From contig NZ_JACA01000001.1 in the NCBI RefSeq assembly GCF_000520995.1, positions 558,001 through 622,000 of the forward strand: a stretch of DNA of 64,000 nucleotides. The letters are read 5' to 3'. The stretch is from Aquimarina macrocephali JAMB N27 (GTDB lineage: Bacteria > Bacteroidota > Bacteroidia > Flavobacteriales > Flavobacteriaceae). Every line of letters begins with the position of its first letter. Positions within the stretch are counted from its first letter, which is position 1. The translations under genes were made by a program, and so were the position numbers. Shown one piece after another: positions 7,111 to 20,050 of this stretch. A model generated the notes under the pieces. That model saw only the letters and a list, made by a program, of their open reading frames with translations. It was not told the origin of the DNA and did no database searches.

Positions 7111-8454
7111 TTAGTTACATCCTAAATCCTGTTGAGATTGTACATCATTAACCGGAAAGCATAATCCCGATTTCAACGTTTCAGGCACATACCGATTAAG
7201 ATCAGTATCCCGTAAACTAGTTTCTATAAAAGCCGTGAGGTTATCTATTTCCTGATCTGTCAAATCAATAGTACCAAATTGAGTTGCCAGGTTTTCATCT
7301 GTTACTTCTGTTGATTGCGGGATTCCTTTATTTTTATATACCACAACATCTCTTACCGATGTAAATGTTCCTCCGTGACCATAAAAACCATTATCAGTTA
7401 TATTATAAAGAGTTGGTGTTTTAAATTTATAGTTATCATTTGGATTTTTAGTAAAACCTCCCCTTCCTTTCTTTACATTTTCAAAACCTGCACTATCTAG
7501 CACCAATGCTTTATTAGAATTATCAAAGTCCCCCATCCCAAAAGCATGAAAACTCTTATCATTTAATGCTGGACCAGTATGACATTGATAACATTTTCCG
7601 TTACCAAAAAACGAAATTGCTCCTTTCTTTTCTGCATCACTCATAGCATCATAGTCTCCTTTTAACCACTCTTGCCAAGGCGATTTATTGGCAAGTAATG
7701 TTCTTTCATAAGCAGCCATGGCCAAACCTGCATTCTTAGTAGTATATCGCTGGCTCTCTATAATATCACCAAAAGCCTTATCAAACATTTCCTTATATCC
7801 AAGTGTATTTACAAAAGCCTCATCAATCAATAGTCTATGTACTCCCTGACCTTTTATTGCTTGAACTTCTATGCCTTGAAATCCTAAAAAATTCTCTTGA
7901 ATATTTGTCCAATTACTTTCTGTTCCTGCATTAGTTCCTGTACCTCCAAATTGTCCATTCCATAACATTACATCTTGGTACGCCACGTTTAAAAGAGTAG
8001 GTGAACGAAGTGGTTGGATGTCAACAGAATCAATAGGAACATTAGTATTTATTAATCTACCATTACCATTGGTTCCAAAACCTATACCACATTCTCCAAT
8101 ACCTTGTCTTAATCCTGAGCTAAATCCCGCAGCAACTTGATGACAAGAGGCACAAGAATATGTCGCTTTCATCTCATCTATTTTTGGGTTTCCGCCAAGA
8201 GCTGTTTCATGCAATAATAACTTTCCTAATTCAACTTTTTCCTTAGTAATTGGATTTAGAGGATCTTGAGGTATTTTAAGATAATCATCACTTTGTGGTA
8301 AAATAAAATAAGCAAGACCTTTGTCTTCAGAAATATTGGTTAAAAGAGTTTTTAAGTCTTTATCCAAACCTGATGCTATAGGTACATAGTCATCATCATT
8401 AGCACAAGAAAATAAAAGTAATGTAATAAGTATAAGAGTAGTTATTTTTCCCAT
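7111..8454 (-). CDS. Di-heme cytochrome c peroxidase family lipoprotein
   Basis: This 447-residue exported protein has a lipoprotein signal (lipidated Cys17 in LLLFSCAND) and two c-type heme sites, CASCH (C101, C104, H105) and CYQCH (C288, C291, H292). It is the CCP/MauG superfamily layout: an N-terminal electron-transfer or active-site heme and a C-terminal heme domain. The C-terminal heme region continues into TPTLYNITDNGFYGHGGTFTSVRDVV. It is about 100 residues longer than classical CcpA; the extra length lies mostly between the two hemes. It could reduce periplasmic peroxide or oxidise a protein partner. It is distant from the second di-heme protein at 19007. Transcribed alone toward its convergent neighbour. 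Confidence 0.9.
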   Translation of the reverse strand: MGKITTLILITLLLFSCANDDDYVPIASGLDKDLKTLLTNISEDKGLAYFILPQSDDYLKIPQDPLNPITKEKVELGKLLLHETALGGNPKIDEMKATYSCASCHQVAAGFSSGLRQGIGECGIGFGTNGNGRLINTNVPIDSVDIQPLRSPTLLNVAYQDVMLWNGQFGGTGTNAGTESNWTNIQENFLGFQGIEVQAIKGQGVHRLLIDEAFVNTLGYKEMFDKAFGDIIESQRYTTKNAGLAMAAYERTLLANKSPWQEWLKGDYDAMSDAEKKGAISFFGNGKCYQCHTGPALNDKSFHAFGMGDFDNSNKALVLDSAGFENVKKGRGGFTKNPNDNYKFKTPTLYNITDNGFYGHGGTFTSVRDVVVYKNKGIPQSTEVTDENLATQFGTIDLTDQEIDNLTAFIETSLRDTDLNRYVPETLKSGLCFPVNDVQSQQDLGCN

Positions 8455-8572: not shown

Positions 8573-9844
8573 TCACTTTGTTTTTGAAAAGATATTCATA
8601 ACAACTAGTGCTACCAATGCTGGTAATAACCAAGCTAAGCTATATACACCTAAAGGAAGGACTTTTATAAGCGGAGCAACATAGTCCTGCATTCCAATAG
8701 ACCCTAAAAAATCAGGAATACTAAATAAAATAGTTACAATAACAACAGTTCTAAATACTAATGAAGAAGTGAATCTATTGGGTAAAACATTTAATAGAAT
8801 CAAAATGATGGTTATAGGGTAAATAAACATAAGTGCCGGTATAGCCACATTGATGATATAGTGTACATCAAACTGTCCCATTAAAACACCCAAAATACAG
8901 GCTACAATTGCAGTAATAAAATATGCTTTTTGAGATCCATTATAAATACCTTTTATAAAATCTGCCGTACCTGTTACAATACCTACAGCTGTAGTAAAAC
9001 AAGCTAATCCAACTAGAATACTTAAAAATACTTTACCAATATTGCCCAGAGTTTTTAAACTCATCCCTGATAATAAATCTGTTCGGGAAATATCAGTGTC
9101 AAAATCAGCACCAAATAATGCACCGCTATAAATCATCCCTGCATAAATAACAAAAAGACCTACTCCCGCCAAAATACCTGATCCAATGATCAGTTTTCGA
9201 TTTCTATCAAAATTATTTTCTCCTTTAATTTTTAGAGAAACAATAATAACGCCACCTACAACAACGGCTCCTATTGCATCAAATGTTTGATATCCTTCTA
9301 GCAACCCTTTAATAAAAGGAGTTTGAAATTCTGAAGGATTAATCGCAGGAGTTTGCATTGAAAAAATACTAATACAAATAATACTAAGTACGACGATAAA
9401 TATAATAGGAGAAAGAAATTTGCCTAATAAACTAAGAATCTTAGATCGATTAAGTACAAAAAGCAATACTAACGCAAAATAAATAGTACTGGTCAACCAG
9501 GCATTTGTGCCAAAAAATGGTTGAATTGCCATCTCATGAGTAACAGATGCTGTTCTTGGAGAAGGCAATGTGATCGAGATCAAATAAACCAGTATACAAT
9601 AAATAAGACTAAATGTAGGAGATACTTTCTTTGCAAAATCAAGCATAGTTCCTTGTAAGCGAGCATGTGCAAAAATTCCTAACAAAGGAATAACTACTGC
9701 CGAAATAGCAAAACCCATAATAACCAGAAACCATGCATCACCCGCTTTATACCCCAAAAGTGGAGGAAGCATCAAGTTTCCTGCACCAAAGAACATTGAA
9801 AATAATGCAAATCCTGCAACAAAAGTTTCTTTATTAAATCTCAT
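8573..9844 (-). CDS. brnQ: Branched-chain amino acid transport carrier (LIVCS family)
   Basis: This is a 423-residue integral membrane protein with about 12 hydrophobic helices. The N-terminus (ETFVAGFALFSMFFGAGNLMLPP) is the hallmark of BrnQ carriers, which import Leu, Ile and Val with Na+ or H+. Length is normal for the family. Its ATG at 9844 is followed upstream by a 220-bp divergent spacer shared with the hydrolase gene at 10065. No other transport component is nearby, as expected for this single-subunit carrier. Confidence 0.93.
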   Translation of the reverse strand: MRFNKETFVAGFALFSMFFGAGNLMLPPLLGYKAGDAWFLVIMGFAISAVVIPLLGIFAHARLQGTMLDFAKKVSPTFSLIYCILVYLISITLPSPRTASVTHEMAIQPFFGTNAWLTSTIYFALVLLFVLNRSKILSLLGKFLSPIIFIVVLSIICISIFSMQTPAINPSEFQTPFIKGLLEGYQTFDAIGAVVVGGVIIVSLKIKGENNFDRNRKLIIGSGILAGVGLFVIYAGMIYSGALFGADFDTDISRTDLLSGMSLKTLGNIGKVFLSILVGLACFTTAVGIVTGTADFIKGIYNGSQKAYFITAIVACILGVLMGQFDVHYIINVAIPALMFIYPITIILILLNVLPNRFTSSLVFRTVVIVTILFSIPDFLGSIGMQDYVAPLIKVLPLGVYSLAWLLPALVALVVMNIFSKTK

Positions 9845-10064
9845 TTAGTTAGGTATTTATGTCCCTTTAAAAAGCAATAATAATGAAACCATAATAAGCA
9901 TACAAAATAATCGTAATAGTATTTGTAAATAGAAAAGCAATAACAAGCTGAAAATTAATATATAACTATAGCTAAAAAACTAAGTACATTCATAAAAAAA
10001 TATTCATTTACATTTTAAAAGAGTATTGTTTCTAGTTTCTTTGCTCTTTAAATTAAAAAGCAAA

Positions 10065-10844
10065 ATGATAGTAACATATAAAGGGATTAAAGTAAATTAT
10101 AACACCTCTGGAAAAGGTACTCCTATAATCTTTCTACATGGGTTTCTAGAAAATTCTACTATGTGGGAAGAAACCATCGACCTTATATCAAGTACATATC
10201 ATTGCATTTCGATAGATCTTTTAGGTCATGGTCATACCGAGTGTATCGGATATATACATACTATGGAGGATATGGCACAAGCAATCAAGGTTGTTTTAGA
10301 TCATCTAGATATCTCTACGGCTTCTTTTGTAGGTCATTCTATGGGAGGATATGTAGCTCTCGCATGCATAGATCTTTTTCCAGATATAGTTTCAGGATTA
10401 GTATTGTTAAATTCTACCTCATTTCCTGATAGTGCCGAGAGAAAACAAAACCGTAGTAGAGCTATTGATATTGTCAAGAATAGTCCTAATGCATATACCA
10501 GCATGGCAATTGCTAATCTTTTTGCCGAAGAAAACCGATTGCGATTTGCCGACAAAATAAATATAATCAAAGATCAGGCTTCAATGATTTCTTTGCAAGG
10601 AATTATCTCTGGTTTAGAAGGAATGAAAGTAAGAAAAGATCATACATCTCTTTTGTCCAATTTTAATAAGCCTAAAATCATATTTGCCGGAACCAAAGAT
10701 CCTATATTATTATATGATCAAAGTATTAAAGAATCTAAACAATGTAATATCAATCTTGTTAGTTTTGATGGAGGGCATATGTCATATTTGGAGAATAAGG
10801 ACGAATATGTTGCAGAACTTTACCAGTTTCTGAACTCTTTTTAA
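10065..10844 (+). CDS. Alpha/beta-fold hydrolase
   Basis: The 259-residue cytosolic protein has the full alpha/beta hydrolase triad: nucleophile S92 in GHSMGG, D212 (GTKDPI) and H238 (GGHMSY). The oxyanion-hole segment is LHGFLEN (about 24-30). I start at the ATG at 10065 (MIVTYKGIKVNYN), where the first beta-strand begins. A TTG at 10026 would only add a non-conserved 13-residue stretch. The closest functional families are esterases, MenH-like or haloperoxidase-like hydrolases; the substrate is unknown. It is divergent from brnQ. Confidence 0.88.
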   Translation: MIVTYKGIKVNYNTSGKGTPIIFLHGFLENSTMWEETIDLISSTYHCISIDLLGHGHTECIGYIHTMEDMAQAIKVVLDHLDISTASFVGHSMGGYVALACIDLFPDIVSGLVLLNSTSFPDSAERKQNRSRAIDIVKNSPNAYTSMAIANLFAEENRLRFADKINIIKDQASMISLQGIISGLEGMKVRKDHTSLLSNFNKPKIIFAGTKDPILLYDQSIKESKQCNINLVSFDGGHMSYLENKDEYVAELYQFLNSF

Positions 10845-10912
10845 TACAAATCTTAGAAGATAATAAACCCATTTTTGGTTTCTTTAAAAACCAGACAGTT
10901 TTATACATTTCT

Positions 10913-10968
10913 TAGACGAAATACCTTTTTCGTAGTCAAAAAACACTACAAAAGGAGTATTTCGACTA
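10913..10968. repeat. Long imperfect stem-loop in spacer
   Basis: Two 24-nt arms (10913-10936 and 10945-10968) pair almost fully. The core is CGAAATAC with GTATTTCG, and the inner part is GTAGT with ACTAC. There is one A/A mismatch, two single-base bulges and an 8-nt A-rich loop. No T-run follows on either strand, so it does not look like a simple terminator. A shorter hairpin (TGGTTT/AAACCA, 10875-10892) precedes it. Confidence 0.6.
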
Positions 10969-11091
10969 AAAATCAATGATTTATGGTGATTTTTTCTTAC
11001 AAAAATGCAGATAATAATAAAAAAAAGATTATTATTGTATTGATAATGAACCCATAACCCTTTTCTATGAATTTTTAACCCCCTAAGAATA

Positions 11092-12446: not shown

Positions 12447-12564
12447 TTCATAAAAAACTTCTGATTTTTCAACCCTCTAAACTTAACACTAGGAGTCTTG
12501 TAGCTTGGGGATATTAAAACAATACTCAAAAAAGTTTAGTACATTTATTAAAATTGAAAACATT

Positions 12565-13815
12565 ATGAAAAGGTATTTTATATGCGAATTGTTATTATTT
12601 GCAGCTTTTATAAGTTGTAGTAGTGACGACAATGGTAATGACGTTTTTAATAATCCGCCTGTTGCTACAAATGATGTTAAATCTGGCCCCTGTGAAAATG
12701 GTCTTGCGGGTGGGTTTTACCCTTGTAGCGGATATGATCTGATCACTAGAATATCGTTGACAGAAATGTCTGCGGGTGCTGGCAATGATAGCTGGGGGTG
12801 GACAGACTCGCAAAGTGGTAAAGAATATGCATTAATAGGGCTGGACAATGGTACGGCTTTCATAGATATTTCTACACCTGATAGTCCAATATATTTAGGC
12901 AAACTACCAACCGCAACTGTAAATAGTCCGTGGAGGGATGTAAAAGTCTATCAAGATCACGCTTTTATTGTAAGTGAGGCTACCAATCATGGAATGCAGG
13001 TTTTCGATCTTACAAGACTACGAAATGTAACAAACCCGCCTCAGACCTTTACTTCTGATACGCATTTTACCGATTTTGGAAGTGCACATAATATTGTTAT
13101 TAATGAAGATTCTGGATTTGCATATGCAGTAGGAACAAGTAGGTTCGGAACTTATCGAGGAGGTCCTGTATTTATTAATATACAAGATCCTAAAAATCCA
13201 ATTGCTGCAGGAGGTTTTCTTTCTACAGGAGATAGAGCTTATAGTCACGATGCACAAGCAATTAACTATCAAGGACCTGATACCGATTATACGGGTAAAG
13301 AAATATTAATTGGTAGTAATGAGATAGAAGTTGTAATCGCAGATATTACAGATAAAAATAATCCTGTTACGATATCAACTATTAAATATACAGACGTAGG
13401 GTATACTCATCAAGGATGGTTTACAGAAGACATGAGATATTTTATATTAGGCGACGAAACCGATGAACAAGGAGTTGGATTTAATACCAGAACTATAGTT
13501 TTTGATTTTGAAGATCTTGATAACCCTAAGTTTCATATGAATTATACGGGTCCTACAGCTGCCGTAGATCATAATGGATATGTAAAGGGAAATCTATTTT
13601 ATCTGGCAAATTATAGAGCTGGAATTAGAATACTTGACATTTCTGATATCGGGAATAAAAATATGACAGAAATTGGTTTTTTTGACACTTTCCCATCAAG
13701 TGATAGTGCAAATTTTAATGGGGTATGGAATGTATACCCTTATTTTCAAAGTGGAAATATTGTGATTAGTGATATCCAAGGAGGGTTTTTATTGATTCGA
13801 AAGAGTACTCCGTAA
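12565..13815 (+). CDS. LVIVD-repeat (choice-of-anchor B) beta-propeller lipoprotein
   Basis: This 416-residue protein is a lipoprotein (lipobox FISC followed by SSDDNG). The ATG at 12565 gives a proper signal peptide, whereas a TTG at 12505 would add 20 unlikely residues. After a linker comes CENGLAG..YPC and a series of blades such as GTAFIDIS, VFDLTRLRN, VFINIQDPKNP, IVIADIT and RILDISDIG, the LVIVD motif of choice-of-anchor B propellers. Each blade carries His or Asp residues in conserved positions (SEATNHGMQ, GSAHNIVINED, YSHDAQ, THQGWFTED, VDHNGY), which might bind metal (inference). The next gene encodes a close paralogue exported by a different route. No enzymatic role is known. Confidence 0.85.
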   Translation: MKRYFICELLLFAAFISCSSDDNGNDVFNNPPVATNDVKSGPCENGLAGGFYPCSGYDLITRISLTEMSAGAGNDSWGWTDSQSGKEYALIGLDNGTAFIDISTPDSPIYLGKLPTATVNSPWRDVKVYQDHAFIVSEATNHGMQVFDLTRLRNVTNPPQTFTSDTHFTDFGSAHNIVINEDSGFAYAVGTSRFGTYRGGPVFINIQDPKNPIAAGGFLSTGDRAYSHDAQAINYQGPDTDYTGKEILIGSNEIEVVIADITDKNNPVTISTIKYTDVGYTHQGWFTEDMRYFILGDETDEQGVGFNTRTIVFDFEDLDNPKFHMNYTGPTAAVDHNGYVKGNLFYLANYRAGIRILDISDIGNKNMTEIGFFDTFPSSDSANFNGVWNVYPYFQSGNIVISDIQGGFLLIRKSTP

Positions 13816-14134
13816 AAATATAAATTAATTATGTTTTATAACATAATCTTATCCTCTGTATAGACCAAAATATAATAGCAGTCAAAAACTTTAATTGCTC
13901 TTTATAGATTTTGCTTAAAATTGAAAAATACATATCACTTTAATACAATTCTTCATTTTTTAACTCATAATTATGTGAAAAAATGTTAAAAAATGTTAAA
14001 GTAATGCAAACTACACATAGAATTCACAAATACCTAAACATAAAATCGATAAATTAGTTAATTATTTAAAAATTAAACTATTAGCGTATGACATAAACTT
14101 CAATTTCTAAACAAACTCTTAAACCACAAACTCA
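13816..14134 (+). other. Intergenic spacer between the two LVIVD genes
   Basis: This 319-bp stretch has no gene. It holds a weak 8-bp hairpin just after the stop (ATTATGTT/AACATAAT, 13828-13847) without a T-run. It also has a tandem direct repeat AAATGTTAAA at 13981-13990 and 13991-14000. No consensus promoter is clear, though the spacer must carry the start signal of the downstream operon. Confidence 0.5.
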
Positions 14135-16837
14135 ATGAAAAATTTAACTACTCTTCTGCTGTTAATATCAGCAGTATTCTCTTATGGTCAGACCCCTTGT
14201 CAAAACGGGCTGGCAGGTTCTTATCCTTGTAACGATTACGATTTAATGTCTCACATCACTCTATCTCAGATGAGTGCCACAGCCGGTAATGATAGCTGGG
14301 GATGGACAGATCCACAAAACGGTAATGAATATGCAATTATTGGTTTAAATAACGGAACCGCATTTATAAACATTTCAAACCCAACTAATCCCGTTTATCT
14401 TGGTAAATTGCCAACAGCTACCTCTAATAGTTCTTGGAGAGATGTAAAAGTGTATAAAAATCATGCTTTTATAGTAAGTGAAGCTTCAAATCACGGAATG
14501 CAGGTTTTTGATCTTACAAGATTGCGTAACGTAGCAAATCCTCCTCAAAATTTTACCGCAGATAAAAGGTATACAGAATTCGGAAATGCTCATAACATTG
14601 TAATCAATGAAGATTCTGGATATGCCTATGTTGTAGGGGCTCAAAGAAATTCTGGTCCTTATAAAGGAGGACCTCTTTTTATTAACATTCAAGATCCTAA
14701 AAACCCTACTAACGCAGGGGGACTTTTATCAGGGGGTCAACGTGCATATACTCATGATGCCCAGGTTATTACTTATAATGGTCCGGATAGTGACTATACA
14801 GGAAAAGAAATTCTAATCGGTAGCAACGAAATTGAAATCGTAATAGCCGATATTACCAATAAATCAAATCCTAAAACAATATCAACCATAAAATATTCTG
14901 ATGTTAAATATACTCACCAAGGGTGGTTTACAGAAGATTTGAAATATTTTATATTGGGAGATGAACTCGATGAACAAGGAGTTGGTTTTAATACAAAAAC
15001 AATAGTTTTTGATTTTCAGGATTTAGATAATCCAAAATTTCATTTTAATTATTTTGGCCCTACACCTGCTACAGATCATAATGGATATGTAAAAGGTAAT
15101 TTATTCTACTTGGCAAATTATAGAGCAGGGATAAGGGTTATAGATATTTCTAACATTGGAACCAAAACCATGACAGAGGTAGGGTTTTTTGATACTTATA
15201 CCTCTAGTAATAGTGTAACTATGGATGGTGTGTGGAATGTATACCCCTATTTCAATAGCGGAAACATTGTTATAAGTGATATTCAAGGAGGGTTTTTCTT
15301 AATACGAAAAAGTGCACCAGCCGTATGCCAGGCAACCGTTCCTACAGGTGTCGGATCTTCTAATATAAATGCAACTTCTGCTACTATTAATTGGACAAGT
15401 GTTGCCAACGCTACTTATGATTTAAGATATCGTCAAACAGGTACTTCTTCCTGGACAACAACCGCAGTAAACGGAACTTCTAATACTATAACTGGTTTGT
15501 CTGCCACTACATCTTATGAAGCACAAGTAAGAAGTAAATGTCAAGACGGCACTTCTTCTAATTACAGTGGTTCTGTTAATTTCACAACTACAGATGTTCA
15601 AGTGAATTATTGTAATTCTAATGGAAATAGTGTTTCTGATGAATATATTAGTAATGTATCTATTGGGAGTATAAATAATACATCCGGGGCATCCAGTGGT
15701 GGTTATGAAGACAACACCTCTATATCTACTAGTCTTGCAAAAGGCACATCACATACAATTACAATCACTCCAACATGGTCGGGTACAGTATATAGTGAAG
15801 GATATAGTGTATGGATCGATTTTAACCAAGATGGTGATTTTGTAGATTCTGGAGAACAAGTATGGTCACAGAATGCAACGAGAACTACTCCTGTTAGTGG
15901 AACATTTTCAATCCCATCTAGTGCATCAGCAGTATCGACCAGAATGCGTGTCTCTATGAAATATAATTCTGTCCCAACATCCTGTGAATCGTTCCAATAT
16001 GGTGAGGTAGAAGATTATACAGTTACTATTACCGAAGGTAGTGGTAATGTTTGTGCCGGTGGAGTATCCTCATTCCCATACAATGAAAGTTTTGAAAACA
16101 CTTTAGGTTTGTGGACACAATCATCATCAGATGATATCAATTGGACAGTAGATACTAATGGAACTCCATCAAGAAATACAGGACCATCAAGTGCAAGTCA
16201 GGGAACATATTATCTCTATGTAGAGGCTTCTGGAAATGGAACAGGGTTTCCTAGTAAACGTGCAATACTAACATCTCCTTGTTTTGACTTAAGTGGTACT
16301 GCTTCTCCTGCATTCACATTTACATATCATATGTTTGGCGCATCTGATATGGGGAGCATAGCAGTTGAAGCATCAACAAATGATGGTGCTTCATGGACAA
16401 GCATCTGGAGTAAAACCGGTAATCAAGGAAATTCCTGGAATACCATTAATCTTGATCTTTCTCAATATATTGGTGAAGCTTTAAAACTAAGATTTAATAG
16501 AGTTACAGGGGCTACCTGGCAAGCTGATATCGCCATTGATAATATTTCTCTTACAACCAGTGTTGCTGCTAACTCTTCTTTGGTTTCAACAGAAAACATA
16601 TCTTTTTCGGTCTTCCCAAATCCGGTTCAGGGATCGATCATGAATGTATTTATGGGTGACAAAAGTGCTTCTAAAGAACCTTCAAATTTTGAAATCAAAA
16701 ATTTTGTAGGGCAATTAGTAGGTAAAGGAGTCGTTAAAAATACAATAGATGTTTCCAATTTGAAAACAGGAGTTTACTTTTTACAAATCACCACCAAAAA
16801 ACAAGGTGTTATTACCAAGCGTTTTGTAAAAAAATAA
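14135..16837 (+). CDS. T9SS-exported LVIVD propeller with FN3, GEVED and jelly-roll domains
   Basis: The 900-residue surface or secreted protein begins with a Sec signal (ends VFSYGQ). Residues about 20-395 form an LVIVD propeller closely similar to the lipoprotein at 12565, including CQNGLAG.YPC and the same His positions. Then come a fibronectin type III domain (about 400-485), a GEVED domain (about 490-633, ending QYGEVEDYTVTI) and a MAM/choice-of-anchor J jelly-roll (about 645-810). The last part is a T9SS type A sorting domain (about 824-900, VFPNPV..GQLVGKG..LKTGVYFLQITTK..TKRFVKK). GEVED and jelly-roll domains commonly bind surface ligands. Only 22 nt separate it from the next gene, so it likely heads the operon to 20050. 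Confidence 0.9.
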   Translation: MKNLTTLLLLISAVFSYGQTPCQNGLAGSYPCNDYDLMSHITLSQMSATAGNDSWGWTDPQNGNEYAIIGLNNGTAFINISNPTNPVYLGKLPTATSNSSWRDVKVYKNHAFIVSEASNHGMQVFDLTRLRNVANPPQNFTADKRYTEFGNAHNIVINEDSGYAYVVGAQRNSGPYKGGPLFINIQDPKNPTNAGGLLSGGQRAYTHDAQVITYNGPDSDYTGKEILIGSNEIEIVIADITNKSNPKTISTIKYSDVKYTHQGWFTEDLKYFILGDELDEQGVGFNTKTIVFDFQDLDNPKFHFNYFGPTPATDHNGYVKGNLFYLANYRAGIRVIDISNIGTKTMTEVGFFDTYTSSNSVTMDGVWNVYPYFNSGNIVISDIQGGFFLIRKSAPAVCQATVPTGVGSSNINATSATINWTSVANATYDLRYRQTGTSSWTTTAVNGTSNTITGLSATTSYEAQVRSKCQDGTSSNYSGSVNFTTTDVQVNYCNSNGNSVSDEYISNVSIGSINNTSGASSGGYEDNTSISTSLAKGTSHTITITPTWSGTVYSEGYSVWIDFNQDGDFVDSGEQVWSQNATRTTPVSGTFSIPSSASAVSTRMRVSMKYNSVPTSCESFQYGEVEDYTVTITEGSGNVCAGGVSSFPYNESFENTLGLWTQSSSDDINWTVDTNGTPSRNTGPSSASQGTYYLYVEASGNGTGFPSKRAILTSPCFDLSGTASPAFTFTYHMFGASDMGSIAVEASTNDGASWTSIWSKTGNQGNSWNTINLDLSQYIGEALKLRFNRVTGATWQADIAIDNISLTTSVAANSSLVSTENISFSVFPNPVQGSIMNVFMGDKSASKEPSNFEIKNFVGQLVGKGVVKNTIDVSNLKTGVYFLQITTKKQGVITKRFVKK

Positions 16838-16859
16838 TGTCTTTAAAATATACTAACAA

Positions 16860-18224
16860 ATGAATCGCTCTAAATTCTTATTCAATGTACTTCTCGTCTG
16901 TATTGCAACATTAGTTTTAATTGCTTGTGGTAGCGATGATGAAGATAATGTGACACCCGTTCCTCCTTTAGAAGGGTTTTTGGGTGAAATAGACTGGGTA
17001 AAAACATTTGGAGGAAGTAATGAAGATAATGCCCTATCAGTAGTTGAAACTACTGATGGGGGTTATGCAATAGCTGGATATACCCAAAGCATTGATGGAG
17101 ATATTACAGATAAAACTGCTCCAGATAGTGATTATTGGTTACTCAAAATAACTAAAGAAGGAGAAATTTCGTGGAGTAAAACTTATGGAGGCTCTGGAGA
17201 TGAAAGAGGAGAAAAAATCATTCAAACTACCGATGGAGGATTTGCGTTGGTAGGATATAGCAGAAGTGCCGATGAAGATGTAAGTGCAAATGCCGGATTA
17301 CAAGACTACTGGATCGTAAAAACAGATGCTTCGGGAGGTATACAATGGGAAAAGAGTTTTGGATTTCCTGGAATAGACAGAGCCTTTTCTGTTGTACAAA
17401 CTCGTGATGGTGGATACTTTATTACAGGTTTTCTTGATGTAACTGCTAGTGGTGGAGAAGGCAATGACAACAAAAGTGGTTTTTCAAAACACGGAGTGGG
17501 AGAATTCTGGGGTATTAAACTCAACTCTTCTGGAGAAAAAGAGTGGCGACGTTTTTTTGGGGGTACCAATAATGATCGTAGTTATGATGTAGTACAAACT
17601 CAAGATGATGGATTTTTAATGATAGGATCTTCAGAAAGTATTGATTTTGATGTTACTGGTAGTAAAGGAAGCTATGATTTTTGGGCCGTAAAAATTAATA
17701 AAGAAGGTACCAAATTATGGGAAAAATCATTTGGAGGATCAGAGATTGACGTAGGTTACGCAATTGCAGCTACCGGTGATGGGAAATTTCTTATCGTAGG
17801 AGATTCCAGAAGTGTAGATGGTGATATTTCTAGTGCTAATGGAAATGCTGATCTTTGGTTGATACAAATAGATGGCAATGGTAATTTACTTTGGCAAAAA
17901 TCATTGGGAGGTACCGCTTTTGATACCGGAAGAGCTATCTCCAAAATGCAAAATGGCGGTTTTATTATTACAGGTAACTCTAGAAGTAATGACATCGATG
18001 TGGCACAAAACAAAGGGCAAAGTGATGTATGGAGTATGATAATAACCTCTAATGGAGAAATCCAATGGAAACTGGCCAGTGGTGGTAGCGAAGCAGAATT
18101 TGGAGAAGGCTGCATAGAAACAAGCGACAAAAAAATAGTTGTTGTAGGTAATTCTGAAAGTAGTGACTTTGATGTCCCTGGTAATAAGGGATCCAAAGAC
18201 CTATTAATTATTAAATATAAATAA
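16860..18224 (+). CDS. Secreted lipoprotein with W-K-x-GG / DGGY propeller-like repeats
   Basis: This 454-residue lipoprotein (signal peptide ending LIACGSDDED) consists of about seven ~55-residue repeats. Each reads roughly W-x-K-t-fGGs-x-x-D-x-a-x-s/a-v-x-x-T-x-DGG-y/f-x-i-x-G-x-S-x-S-x-D-x-D, for example VKTFGGSNEDNALSVVETTD and QKSLGGTAFDTGRAISKMQN. The pattern resembles Bacteroidota 'delta-60/Kelch-like' beta-propeller proteins. No catalytic residues are evident. It lies inside the operon with the T9SS propeller (22 nt upstream) and the MbnP-like gene (5 nt downstream), so it probably acts at the same cell surface. Exact family not recognised. Confidence 0.75.
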   Translation: MNRSKFLFNVLLVCIATLVLIACGSDDEDNVTPVPPLEGFLGEIDWVKTFGGSNEDNALSVVETTDGGYAIAGYTQSIDGDITDKTAPDSDYWLLKITKEGEISWSKTYGGSGDERGEKIIQTTDGGFALVGYSRSADEDVSANAGLQDYWIVKTDASGGIQWEKSFGFPGIDRAFSVVQTRDGGYFITGFLDVTASGGEGNDNKSGFSKHGVGEFWGIKLNSSGEKEWRRFFGGTNNDRSYDVVQTQDDGFLMIGSSESIDFDVTGSKGSYDFWAVKINKEGTKLWEKSFGGSEIDVGYAIAATGDGKFLIVGDSRSVDGDISSANGNADLWLIQIDGNGNLLWQKSLGGTAFDTGRAISKMQNGGFIITGNSRSNDIDVAQNKGQSDVWSMIITSNGEIQWKLASGGSEAEFGEGCIETSDKKIVVVGNSESSDFDVPGNKGSKDLLIIKYK

Positions 18225-18229
18225 ACACA

Positions 18230-18997
18230 ATGAAAAATATAATATACATCCTCATAGCAACATTGGTCATCGTTTCTTCCTGTAAAAATGACGACGAGGG
18301 AACGACAAAAACCTTTGGAAATGTTGTACTTGATTTAAAAAACACAATAAATAGTAATGGTATCGAATTAACTACTGATTCTTATACTAACGGAAGTAAT
18401 GAAGTCTATATCATTTCAGAATTAAAATATATTATAAGTAATGTTGTTTTAATTAAAGCTAATGGTGAGGAGTTTACGTATCCTGTAGATCGAAGCTATT
18501 TCTTAATTAACGAAGAAGTTTTAGAAAGCAAAAAAGTAAACCTTTCTGATATTAGTGCAGGACAATACACTAAAATCAGGTTTGGTTTTGGGGTTGATCA
18601 ATCAAAATATCCACTTAACGGAATGGCGAACTTTATTCCTACCGCAGAAGAAAGCGGAATGTTATGGAGTTGGTCTGCCGGATATAAATTCCTTAAATTT
18701 GAAGGAACATATACCACAAATGGTGGAGCTAGTACTGATTTTTTAATTCATGTAGGAAGTCATGGTACCACTTTAGACAACTATAAAGAAATAACACTCG
18801 AATTACCCAGCACATTGACCATTGAAGAATCAAAATCACCAGAAGTGGCAATTAATGTGGATATTGCAAAAATATTTGATGGTACAAATACGCATTCACT
18901 AGAGGTAAAAAACAGTATTCAGGTAGATGCAGAATTTGCTCCAAAAATTGCAGAAAATATAAGTACTATGTTTACTGCATCTAGTGTATCTAATTAA
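18230..18997 (+). CDS. MbnP-like lipoprotein
   Basis: This 255-residue lipoprotein (lipidated Cys18, VSSCKNDDEG) matches the MbnP family. Seen: an initial beta-strand VVLDLKNTINSNGIEL, the segment EVYIISELKYIISNVVLI, FGFGVDQSKYP, the hallmark MLWSWSAGYKFLKFEG (W146 and W148) and FLIHVGSHG. In characterised MbnP/CorA proteins a Trp is converted to kynurenine by a partner di-heme enzyme (MbnH) and the protein binds copper. The di-heme gene follows after only 9 nt, exactly the expected partner. Which Trp is modified here, and whether copper is bound, is inference. The upstream spacing of 5 nt suggests translational coupling. Confidence 0.87.
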   Translation: MKNIIYILIATLVIVSSCKNDDEGTTKTFGNVVLDLKNTINSNGIELTTDSYTNGSNEVYIISELKYIISNVVLIKANGEEFTYPVDRSYFLINEEVLESKKVNLSDISAGQYTKIRFGFGVDQSKYPLNGMANFIPTAEESGMLWSWSAGYKFLKFEGTYTTNGGASTDFLIHVGSHGTTLDNYKEITLELPSTLTIEESKSPEVAINVDIAKIFDGTNTHSLEVKNSIQVDAEFAPKIAENISTMFTASSVSN

Positions 18998-19006
18998 AGT
19001 AATATT

Positions 19007-20050
19007 TTGAAATTATTATCATATATAGCTATTATCCTTATCGGAACTGCATGTAGTTCTGATAAGGATAATTATGTTCCTATCGAAAATAAAAAATTAG
19101 AATTTACTATACCCGCAAACTTTCCCGACCCAACTTATGATATAGCACTTAATCCTCCCACAGAAAAAGGTTTCGAACTAGGAAAAAAGTTATTTTATGA
19201 TGGTCGCCTGGCCTCTGATGGTGTGATTTCTTGCGGTTTTTGTCATATTCAGGATTTTGCATTTACCCATCACACACATATTGTAAGCCATGGTGTAGGC
19301 GGTGCTTTAGGAACTCGTAATGCACAGCCTTTACATAATATGGCATTTATGAAAGAATTCACATGGGATGGAGCTGCAATACATTTAGATCTTCAACCTA
19401 TTATACCTATTACTGCAGAAGTAGAAATGAATGAAACCTTCAATGGCATTCTTAAAAAACTAGAAGAACAACCAGAATATGTAAAATTATTTGCAGAAGC
19501 CTTTGAAGATCAAAAAATCAATTCTGATAACATGCTTAAGGCAATTTCTCAGTTTATGATTATGATGATTTCAGCAAATACCAAATATGACAAAATAGAA
19601 AGAAATGAAGGCTCTGTATTTACTGTAGAAGAAGCTGCAGGTTTTGAACTCTTTAAAACCAAATGTGCCTCTTGTCATAAAGGTACCTTATTTACAGATC
19701 AATCGTATCGCAATAATGGTCTACCTATTGACCCTCTGTATAATGATATAGGAAGAAATCGTGTTACAGGATTAACCGAGGACATGCAAAAATTTAAAGT
19801 TCCTAGTTTAAGAAATATTGAACTTACTTTCCCTTATATGCATGATGGTAGATTAAAAACTTTAGACGATGTTTTAAATCATTATAGTGATGGTATGGTT
19901 GATTCTGAAACCTTAGACCCAATACTTAAAGACCAAAATGGTGCCTTGGGAATCCCAATGACAGCTGAAGAAAAACAACAAATCATCGCTTTTCTAAAAA
20001 CACTTACCGATGATGATTTTGTAAACGATACTCGTTTTTCAGAATTTTAA
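19007..20050 (+). CDS. MbnH-like di-heme cytochrome c peroxidase/MauG-family lipoprotein
   Basis: The 347-residue exported protein starts with TTG (no ATG gives the signal peptide) and is a lipoprotein (lipobox LIGTAC, Cys16). Two heme c sites are visible: CGFCH (C76, C79, H80) and CASCH (C220, C223, H224). The C-terminal heme domain has VPSLRNIELTFPYMHDGRLKTL, the conserved segment of CCP/MauG/MbnH proteins. Known MbnH enzymes form a high-valent di-heme state that oxidises a Trp of MbnP; the directly preceding MbnP-like gene makes that the likely substrate. A general peroxidase role remains possible. It is the last gene of the operon; the SUF promoter follows. Confidence 0.88.
   Translation: MKLLSYIAIILIGTACSSDKDNYVPIENKKLEFTIPANFPDPTYDIALNPPTEKGFELGKKLFYDGRLASDGVISCGFCHIQDFAFTHHTHIVSHGVGGALGTRNAQPLHNMAFMKEFTWDGAAIHLDLQPIIPITAEVEMNETFNGILKKLEEQPEYVKLFAEAFEDQKINSDNMLKAISQFMIMMISANTKYDKIERNEGSVFTVEEAAGFELFKTKCASCHKGTLFTDQSYRNNGLPIDPLYNDIGRNRVTGLTEDMQKFKVPSLRNIELTFPYMHDGRLKTLDDVLNHYSDGMVDSETLDPILKDQNGALGIPMTAEEKQQIIAFLKTLTDDDFVNDTRFSEF

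Follow-up and report, generated by a model that had tools for sequence, protein, structure and literature searches.

A methanobactin-independent MbnP/MbnH-like pair in a conserved surface propeller operon of Aquimarina macrocephali, and its apparent trade-off with a histidine motif

Introduction

What is an MbnP/MbnH-like pair doing at the end of a set of propeller genes in a flavobacterium, with no methanobactin genes beside it? The question is raised by a 64,000-nucleotide stretch of the genome of Aquimarina macrocephali JAMB N27 (the window, meaning the whole stretch that was analysed). The genes and residues on which the analysis turns are collected in Table 1.

Table 1. Genes and candidate functional residues of the propeller-MbnPH unit in the window
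Feature	Description	Position	Strand	Basis
coaB copy 1	choice-of-anchor B beta-propeller lipoprotein	12565..13815	+	TIGR04312 557.6 bits, cut-off 100
coaB copy 2	choice-of-anchor B propeller	14135..16837	+	TIGR04312 564.5 bits; T9SS sorting domain
prop	SBBP-repeat-like propeller lipoprotein, without GHDH	16860..18224	+	weak LipL53-family NF047494 match
mbnP	MbnP-like lipoprotein, 255 aa, ATG start	18230..18997	+	PF20243, AlphaFold2 model, 7l6g match
M144-L-W146-S-W148	candidate copper Met, Trp for oxidation and second Trp of WxW, in MLWSWSAGYKF	18659..18673	+	aligned to GMAWNW of 7l6g; codons 18659-18661 (M144), 18665-18667 (W146), 18671-18673 (W148)
H174	candidate copper His	18749..18751	+	aligned to HVGS of 7l6g
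mbnH	MbnH/MauG-like di-haem lipoprotein, 347 aa, TTG start	19007..20050	+	PF03150, TIGR04039
C76-GF-C79-H80	first haem motif	19232..19246	+	80/81 first-set rows
W120	candidate inter-haem Trp	19364..19366	+	aligned to Trp of MbnH 6e1c; 80/81 rows
C220-AS-C223-H224	second haem motif	19664..19678	+	81/81 first-set rows
Y293		19883..19885	+	aligned to Tyr of MbnH 6e1c and Met of peroxidase 2c1u

Loci and Samples

The Pfam MbnP family, PF20243, was surveyed in 199 genomes of the family Flavobacteriaceae and was present in 99 of them, at 110 places. Eighty of these loci were fetched with about 8 kb of flank on each side and, together with the window, make up the profile-found first set of 81. The remaining 29 places were fetched later with shorter flanks (80 + 29 + window = 110). 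A separate named set of 80 loci was found by patterns that included MxWxW, and some of its contigs are also in the first set. The invariance of the Met and the two Trp residues in alignment A3 (54/54) is thus partly by construction, and the fair count for these residues is that of the first set. Types Ia and Ib, described below, were labelled from the MbnP motif ahead of any tree, so that motif counts within them are partly definitional.

The 54 pair-bearing prop proteins compared column by column consist of 40 from the first set and 14 of 56 such loci in the named set; the other pair-bearing props of the named set were checked for GHDH. The comparison group is formed by 20 flavobacterial coaB places from genomes without PF20243, with a prop in 18 and a pair in none. 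The identity of thiL and suf was tested on the window genes and, in relatives, is taken from length and position. An over-long ORF start in L056 was trimmed for the MbnP tree, and the coaB ORF was lost in gene calling at three of the 20 non-flavobacterial coaB places (L172, L173 and L175).

The MbnP-like Lipoprotein and Its Di-haem Partner

The first-pass annotation of this DNA had recognised an MbnP hallmark with W146 and W148, a di-heme MauG/MbnH-type gene following it, and lipoprotein character in both products. All three observations hold. The MbnP-like protein scores 149.2 bits against PF20243 (cut-off 27). Its AlphaFold2 model, made from a 54-row alignment, has a mean pLDDT of 89.3 and finds a single clear match in Foldseek, the six chains of 7l6g (E 4.6e-8 to 5.1e-7; next 9.4e-3). 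The same structure was returned by a second aligner, with a Z of 16.9 and an rmsd of 3.4 over 211 residues (next best Z 6.3). MopE and CorA are not among the structural matches listed for the model, which neither shows nor excludes a relation to them. The copper site of MbnP is said, in work by Manesis et al. in PNAS in 2021, to be formed by a His, a Met and the first Trp. Among the genomes collected, the five loci nearest in MbnP have identities from 97 down to 91%; four belong to Aquimarina and one to a Bacteroidia assembly. By family, predicted fold and candidate copper-site residues, the protein is confirmed as MbnP-type at the level of sequence and model.

The mbnH ORF begins 9 nt after mbnP on the same strand, and its product scores 169.9 bits against CCP_MauG (PF03150). 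Its best solved relative is 6e1c (E 8.7e-41), the MbnH of Methylosinus trichosporium. W120 presumably has the inter-haem role, and Y293 is presumably the Tyr that replaces the distal Met of the peroxidases. In comparisons with six Aquimarina-group relatives, mbnP has a dN/dS of 0.10-0.12 and mbnH one of 0.03-0.07. The genome holds five PF03150 matches in all. Some 10 kb upstream of mbnPH, at 7111-8454 on the opposite strand, a second di-haem CCP_MauG lipoprotein is encoded.

Both proteins fall under the cut-offs of their NCBIfam models. MbnP scores 55.2 bits against the equivalog TIGR04052 (cut-off 140), a cut-off also missed by one tested member each of locus types II, III and IV, and MbnH scores 232.6 bits against TIGR04039 (cut-off 362.85). 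The single cysteine of the window MbnP is the lipobox Cys, so that the protein lacks the 'four-Cys' motif to which the 7l6g title refers. These scores and the missing cysteines mark the pair as a variant.

The Propellers and the Operon

Both coaB copies lie far above the TIGR04312 cut-off, and the AlphaFold2 model of copy 1 (pLDDT 93.5) is a beta-propeller. An alternative TTG start at 12505 would lengthen the ORF of copy 1, whose choice-of-anchor B domain spans 12682-13812. Copy 2 carries the Pfam domains fn3, GEVED, MAM and Por_Secre_tail. The match of prop to NF047494 reaches 39.4 bits against a cut-off of 400. The unit is flanked by thiL, on the opposite strand, and by suf genes. A promoter scan was uninformative (38 found vs 38.5 expected), and among the terminator-like sites listed there is none between mbnH and sufA.

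That the pair sits behind surface propellers and has no methanobactin gene nearby had also been claimed in the first-pass annotation. The former is borne out by the TIGR04312 matches and the model of coaB copy 1; as to the latter, a Pfam/NCBIfam scan gave no match to the methanobactin biosynthesis families (mbnB/mbnC) among the genes at 12565-20050. The suggestion drawn there, that the system is independent of methanobactin, is right but not new, as passages of two papers place MbnPH far beyond the methanobactin producers (BMC Biol 2013, PMC3621798; mBio 2022, PMC9426467). The scan of the operon proteins also gave no copper gene, receptor, transporter, regulator or SCO1 family. Elsewhere in the genome, on contig C14 and not on the window contig, the one match to PF05114 (the MbnB/TglH/ChrH superfamily) is a 484-aa protein. 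The ORF directly before it has 135 aa and contains the Cys-bearing repeats GCPKCFSG and GCLACCSG, and the two together (L266, 917-2787) may form a locus for a modified peptide.

In the coaB proteins of MbnPH-bearing operons H153, H207, H261 and H315 are found in 65/65 and H120 in 64/65, and the DxWGW motif is present in all 65. In flavobacterial loci without a neighbouring pair DxWGW is kept in 19/20, and no Trp or His column separates loci with a pair from those without, at the thresholds used. The conserved coaB residues therefore appear to be independent of MbnH, and DxWGW was set aside as a second MbnH substrate. Judged by its sequence, the choice-of-anchor B domain may itself be a propeller that binds metal. 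In the phylum, coaB is over the cut-off in 92 of 296 genomes and is thus widespread without MbnPH; none of the 20 non-flavobacterial coaB places received a label for prop, MbnP or MbnH. A specific kinship of coaB with the Sphingobium phosphotriesterase was rejected. This enzyme is the top match by Foldseek, yet it is level with generic WD40 propellers (structural Z 30.5 vs 31.3), and in sequence coaB resembles it weakly (E 0.0016).

Distribution and Locus Types

The genes mbnP and mbnH occur together in all 81 first-set loci and are directly adjacent in 80. Strict pairing and low dN/dS together indicate that the window pair is not a chance arrangement. Type I loci (40 in the first set) have one or more coaB, prop, MbnP and MbnH; type II loci (28) consist of a gene of about 125 aa, the pair and a gene of about 330 aa; in type III (8 loci) the pair stands beside a gene of about 661 aa. 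Four loci form type IV and one lies outside the types. The order coaB-prop-MbnP-MbnH, with all genes directly adjacent, is found in 39/81 first-set loci, and the same four-gene order in 26 of the remaining 29 places, giving 65/110 overall. The gap between prop and MbnP is 30 nt or less in 37 of the 40 type I loci, and most of these loci have flanking genes of the same lengths as thiL and suf in the window. In the named set coaB and prop lie near MbnP in 56/80 loci and an MbnH-like ORF is present in 80/80, several genes distant in some Kordia loci.

Several observations concern the other genes that accompany the pair. In L069 (8969-12381) genes of about 928 and 209 aa lie between mbnP and mbnH. 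The first of these, at 929 aa, was considered as a receptor and rejected; it encodes a propeller-type histidine kinase and is followed by a response regulator. The Kordia-like loci L227, L239 and L240 have a similar insertion, as judged by the likeness of the first residues only. In L075, the one type III locus tested, the 661-aa upstream gene encodes a TonB receptor with a sub-cut-off match to a copper-receptor family; type III MbnPH with a TonB receptor belongs to other genera. In most type II loci (L036-L065) the gene of about 330 aa overlaps the mbnH end or directly adjoins it; in the two loci tested, L038 and L045, it has no Pfam or NCBIfam match. Type II MbnP has a C-terminal HxHN in most loci and His207 in 28/28. 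In L067 (type IV) the product of the gene after mbnH (9596-11005) carries a YHYH domain and a sorting tail of the T9SS kind.

Two Versions of the Pair behind the Same Propellers

Type I is not uniform. The MbnP motif divides it into Ia, with 7 loci including the window and the motif M-x-W-x-W, and Ib, with 33. Compared with the site of 7l6g, Ib MbnP lacks the Met in 33/33, which is partly by definition of Ib. W148 has become Val in 27/33, W146 is kept in 28/33 and absent in 5/33, and H174 is present in 33/33. In the first set the Met, both Trp and the His are all kept in type II (28/28) and type IV (4/4), and in type III (n=8) both Trp and the His are kept in 8/8 and the Met in 7/8. The H174 column is His in every Ia, Ib, II, III and IV row. 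The loss of M144, W148 and sometimes W146 indicates that the known form of the copper site is not maintained in Ib. Across the first set and the later ones, each of the 60 Ib proteins has GGGY followed by His (GGGYH), and by its residues the Ib site may approach the kynurenine plus two His site of CorA and MopE. Position 293 of MbnH is Tyr throughout types Ia, Ib, II and IV in the first set, but Phe or Leu in the eight type III pairs (L074-L076, L078, L080, L082, L083 and L085).

Do Ia and Ib share their history with the propellers in front of them? In the MbnH tree Ib is a single group and Ia groups with type II; Ia and Ib as one clade are rejected (p-AU 0.0016). The MbnP tree also sets Ib apart from Ia as one group with support of 100/100, under a long-branch warning that IV and Ib may join falsely. 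In the prop tree, by contrast, Ib as a single group is rejected (p-AU 0.0115), and Ia and Ib are intermixed within one MbnPH-bearing clade. The deep branches of this tree have moderate support, and the long Ib branches call for caution with the trees. The conflict of the MbnP and MbnH trees with the prop tree indicates that the same propellers are followed by pairs that differ in ancestry.

A Histidine Motif on prop

Props without a neighbouring pair have H148, H172, H174 and Y176 in 18/18, GHDH being residues 171-174. In the pair-bearing props H172 and H174 are found in 0/54 and H148 in 8/54, and H211 is present in all 72 compared. The prop clade without the pair has four special invariant columns, three of which are His, and four other columns mark the MbnPH-bearing clade.

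The rule was predicted beforehand and then tried on 46 further loci, of which 42 had a prop and were scored; L269, L273, L310 and L312 have no prop and lie outside the score. GHDH was found in 14/14 of these props without an adjacent pair and in 0/28 with one. L281, L282 and L283 have a GHDH prop without an adjacent pair, yet a type II pair is present elsewhere in the genome, which indicates that the neighbouring pair is what counts. Genome G283 had been expected to be GHDH-positive, with no MbnP known there; a pair was found beside its prop and GHDH was absent, so that the rule held and the named case failed. GHDH is also absent from all 58 props in the named set.

On a 114-row prop tree GHDH and MbnPH each change once. 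A single change per trait amounts to one historical event, and the correlation is suggestive rather than a statistical proof. A trade-off on prop between GHDH and a neighbouring MbnPH is, at the sequence level, a strong lead, not proof.

Probable Surface Location

MbnP and MbnH have a Cys in a lipobox-like pattern at C18 and C16, respectively, by pattern match. The residues after the lipobox Cys are KNDDEG in MbnP, SSDKDN in MbnH, GSDDED in prop and SSDDNG in coaB copy 1. Surface export signals of lipoproteins are given as SDDFE and K-(D/E)2 in passages of PMC5080379, and the acidic residues of the window lipoproteins resemble them. Among type I proteins, at least two acidic residues occur in the six positions after the Cys in 34/40 MbnP, 20/40 MbnH, 24/40 prop and 12/65 coaB; the lipobox pattern itself is unmatched in 4/40 MbnP, 10/40 MbnH, 10/40 prop and 41/65 coaB. 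CorA is described, in excerpts of PMC3912023, as a surface protein in which Cu(I) is bound by two His, a water and kynurenine, with a di-haem gene beside it. Going by that account, kynurenine-Cu(I) chemistry at the cell surface exists.

Explanations for the Unit

How can the pair, the propellers and the histidine motif be brought together? The explanation that we consider the best, and to which we give an even chance, is that of a methanobactin-independent MbnP/MbnH module in a four-gene surface unit, with kynurenine-Cu(I) replacing the GHDH site. The unit would face outward, with MbnH anchored in the outer membrane. MbnH would oxidise W146 of MbnP to kynurenine, and the kynurenine-bearing MbnP would bind Cu(I) through the kynurenine, M144 and H174. 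This site would serve the coaB and prop propellers at the cell surface and would have taken over from a putative histidine metal site, GHDH, on prop. Copper gathering and cofactor use would both fit the unit. Counting against this explanation are the single change of each trait on the prop tree, the lack of copper genes in the operon, the altered copper site of Ib, the scores under the NCBIfam cut-offs and the occurrence of coaB across the phylum without MbnPH. It is also conceivable, and put forward here tentatively, that the Flavobacteriaceae have a surface propeller machine with one metal site in two exchangeable builds, either GHDH or a kynurenine-copper protein, the latter remade in Ib.

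An alternative that seems unlikely is that MbnPH matures the propellers, MbnH or MbnP-delivered copper building a cofactor in coaB or prop. The five His and the DxWGW motif kept in coaB would suit such a role, and passages of PMC5739008 supply a precedent in mtoX-SCO1-mauG, but coaB without the pair retains the motif and no Trp or His column splits the two groups. It is distinctly unlikely that the pair serves surface copper acquisition or sensing, a role suggested in the first-pass annotation, with the propellers as incidental neighbours. CorA, a homologue of MopE with the same site, is a copper-repressible surface kynurenine-Cu(I) protein according to parts of PMC3912023, and the sister type III pair in L075 has its TonB receptor with the copper-receptor match. 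The operon, however, is without receptor, transporter or regulator, and its propellers look non-incidental in view of the conserved order, the spacing and the tree conflict.

We give little credence to common descent alone, by which the pair landed once behind coaB-prop and GHDH is a mere clade marker. One change each for GHDH and MbnPH on the prop tree is what such a history would leave, and further columns do differ between the prop clades, including the four that mark the MbnPH-bearing clade. It does not sit well with the conflict between the MbnH and MbnP trees and the prop tree, with His filling three of the four columns that are both invariant in the pair-less clade and peculiar to it, or with the short prop-MbnP spacing in type I. 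Finally, it is hardly credible that the di-haem protein is simply a peroxidase and its partner lipoprotein unmodified: PF03150 includes peroxidases and 16 of the 29 matched solved sequences are named 'peroxidase', but the nearest solved relative is MbnH, the position aligned with the peroxidase Met holds a Tyr, and the pairing with MbnP is strict.

Relation to Known Systems

The favoured explanation, a kynurenine-Cu(I) module serving the propellers, has relatives among described systems. The window pair is like MbnP/MbnH of M. trichosporium (7l6g, 6e1c) in the MbnP fold, the M-x-W-x-W motif plus His, the di-haem partner with Tyr and the adjacency of the genes. It differs in that MbnP has no Cys outside the lipobox, in the scores under the TIGR04052 and TIGR04039 cut-offs, in the lipoprotein-like character of both members, in having no methanobactin genes beside it and in forming the last two genes of an operon of propellers.

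MopE/SACCP and CorA/CorB of methanotrophs likewise combine a surface Cu(I)-kynurenine protein with a co-transcribed di-haem protein, as described in excerpts of PMC3912023. CorA has two His, and through GGGYH the Ib relatives of the window pair may resemble it. MbnP is stated to have no marked sequence similarity to MopE or CorA in a passage of PMC3621798, which also mentions GenProp0940.

In the mtoX-SCO1-mauG arrangement a propeller gene, SBP56 (methanethiol oxidase), stands together with genes for a copper chaperone and a di-haem MauG-like protein, and parts of the same paper propose that the MauG-like and SCO1 genes mature the copper propeller methanethiol oxidase (PMC5739008). The window propellers, unlike that one, are of the TIGR04312 and SBBP-like kinds, and there is no SCO1 family match. 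The bp2923 (CruR) copper operons, as far as passages of PMC9426467 describe them, have MbnPH-like genes away from methanobactin, as in the window, but they also have copper receptors and chaperones, which the window operon is without.

Choice-of-anchor B and TIGR04312 are not named in the open-licence literature searched here, and print elsewhere is possible. A search of the same literature for papers combining three of MbnP, Bacteroidetes, copper and WxW gave a single, unrelated one. We consider three findings new: that the four-gene operon is conserved, that pairs have been exchanged behind its propellers, and that a neighbouring pair and the GHDH histidines appear to trade off.

Implications

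The conserved partners and the pair-less GHDH relatives provide a direct comparison of the metal on prop with and without MbnPH. A propeller-MbnPH operon would also offer a lead to the role of the choice-of-anchor B proteins.
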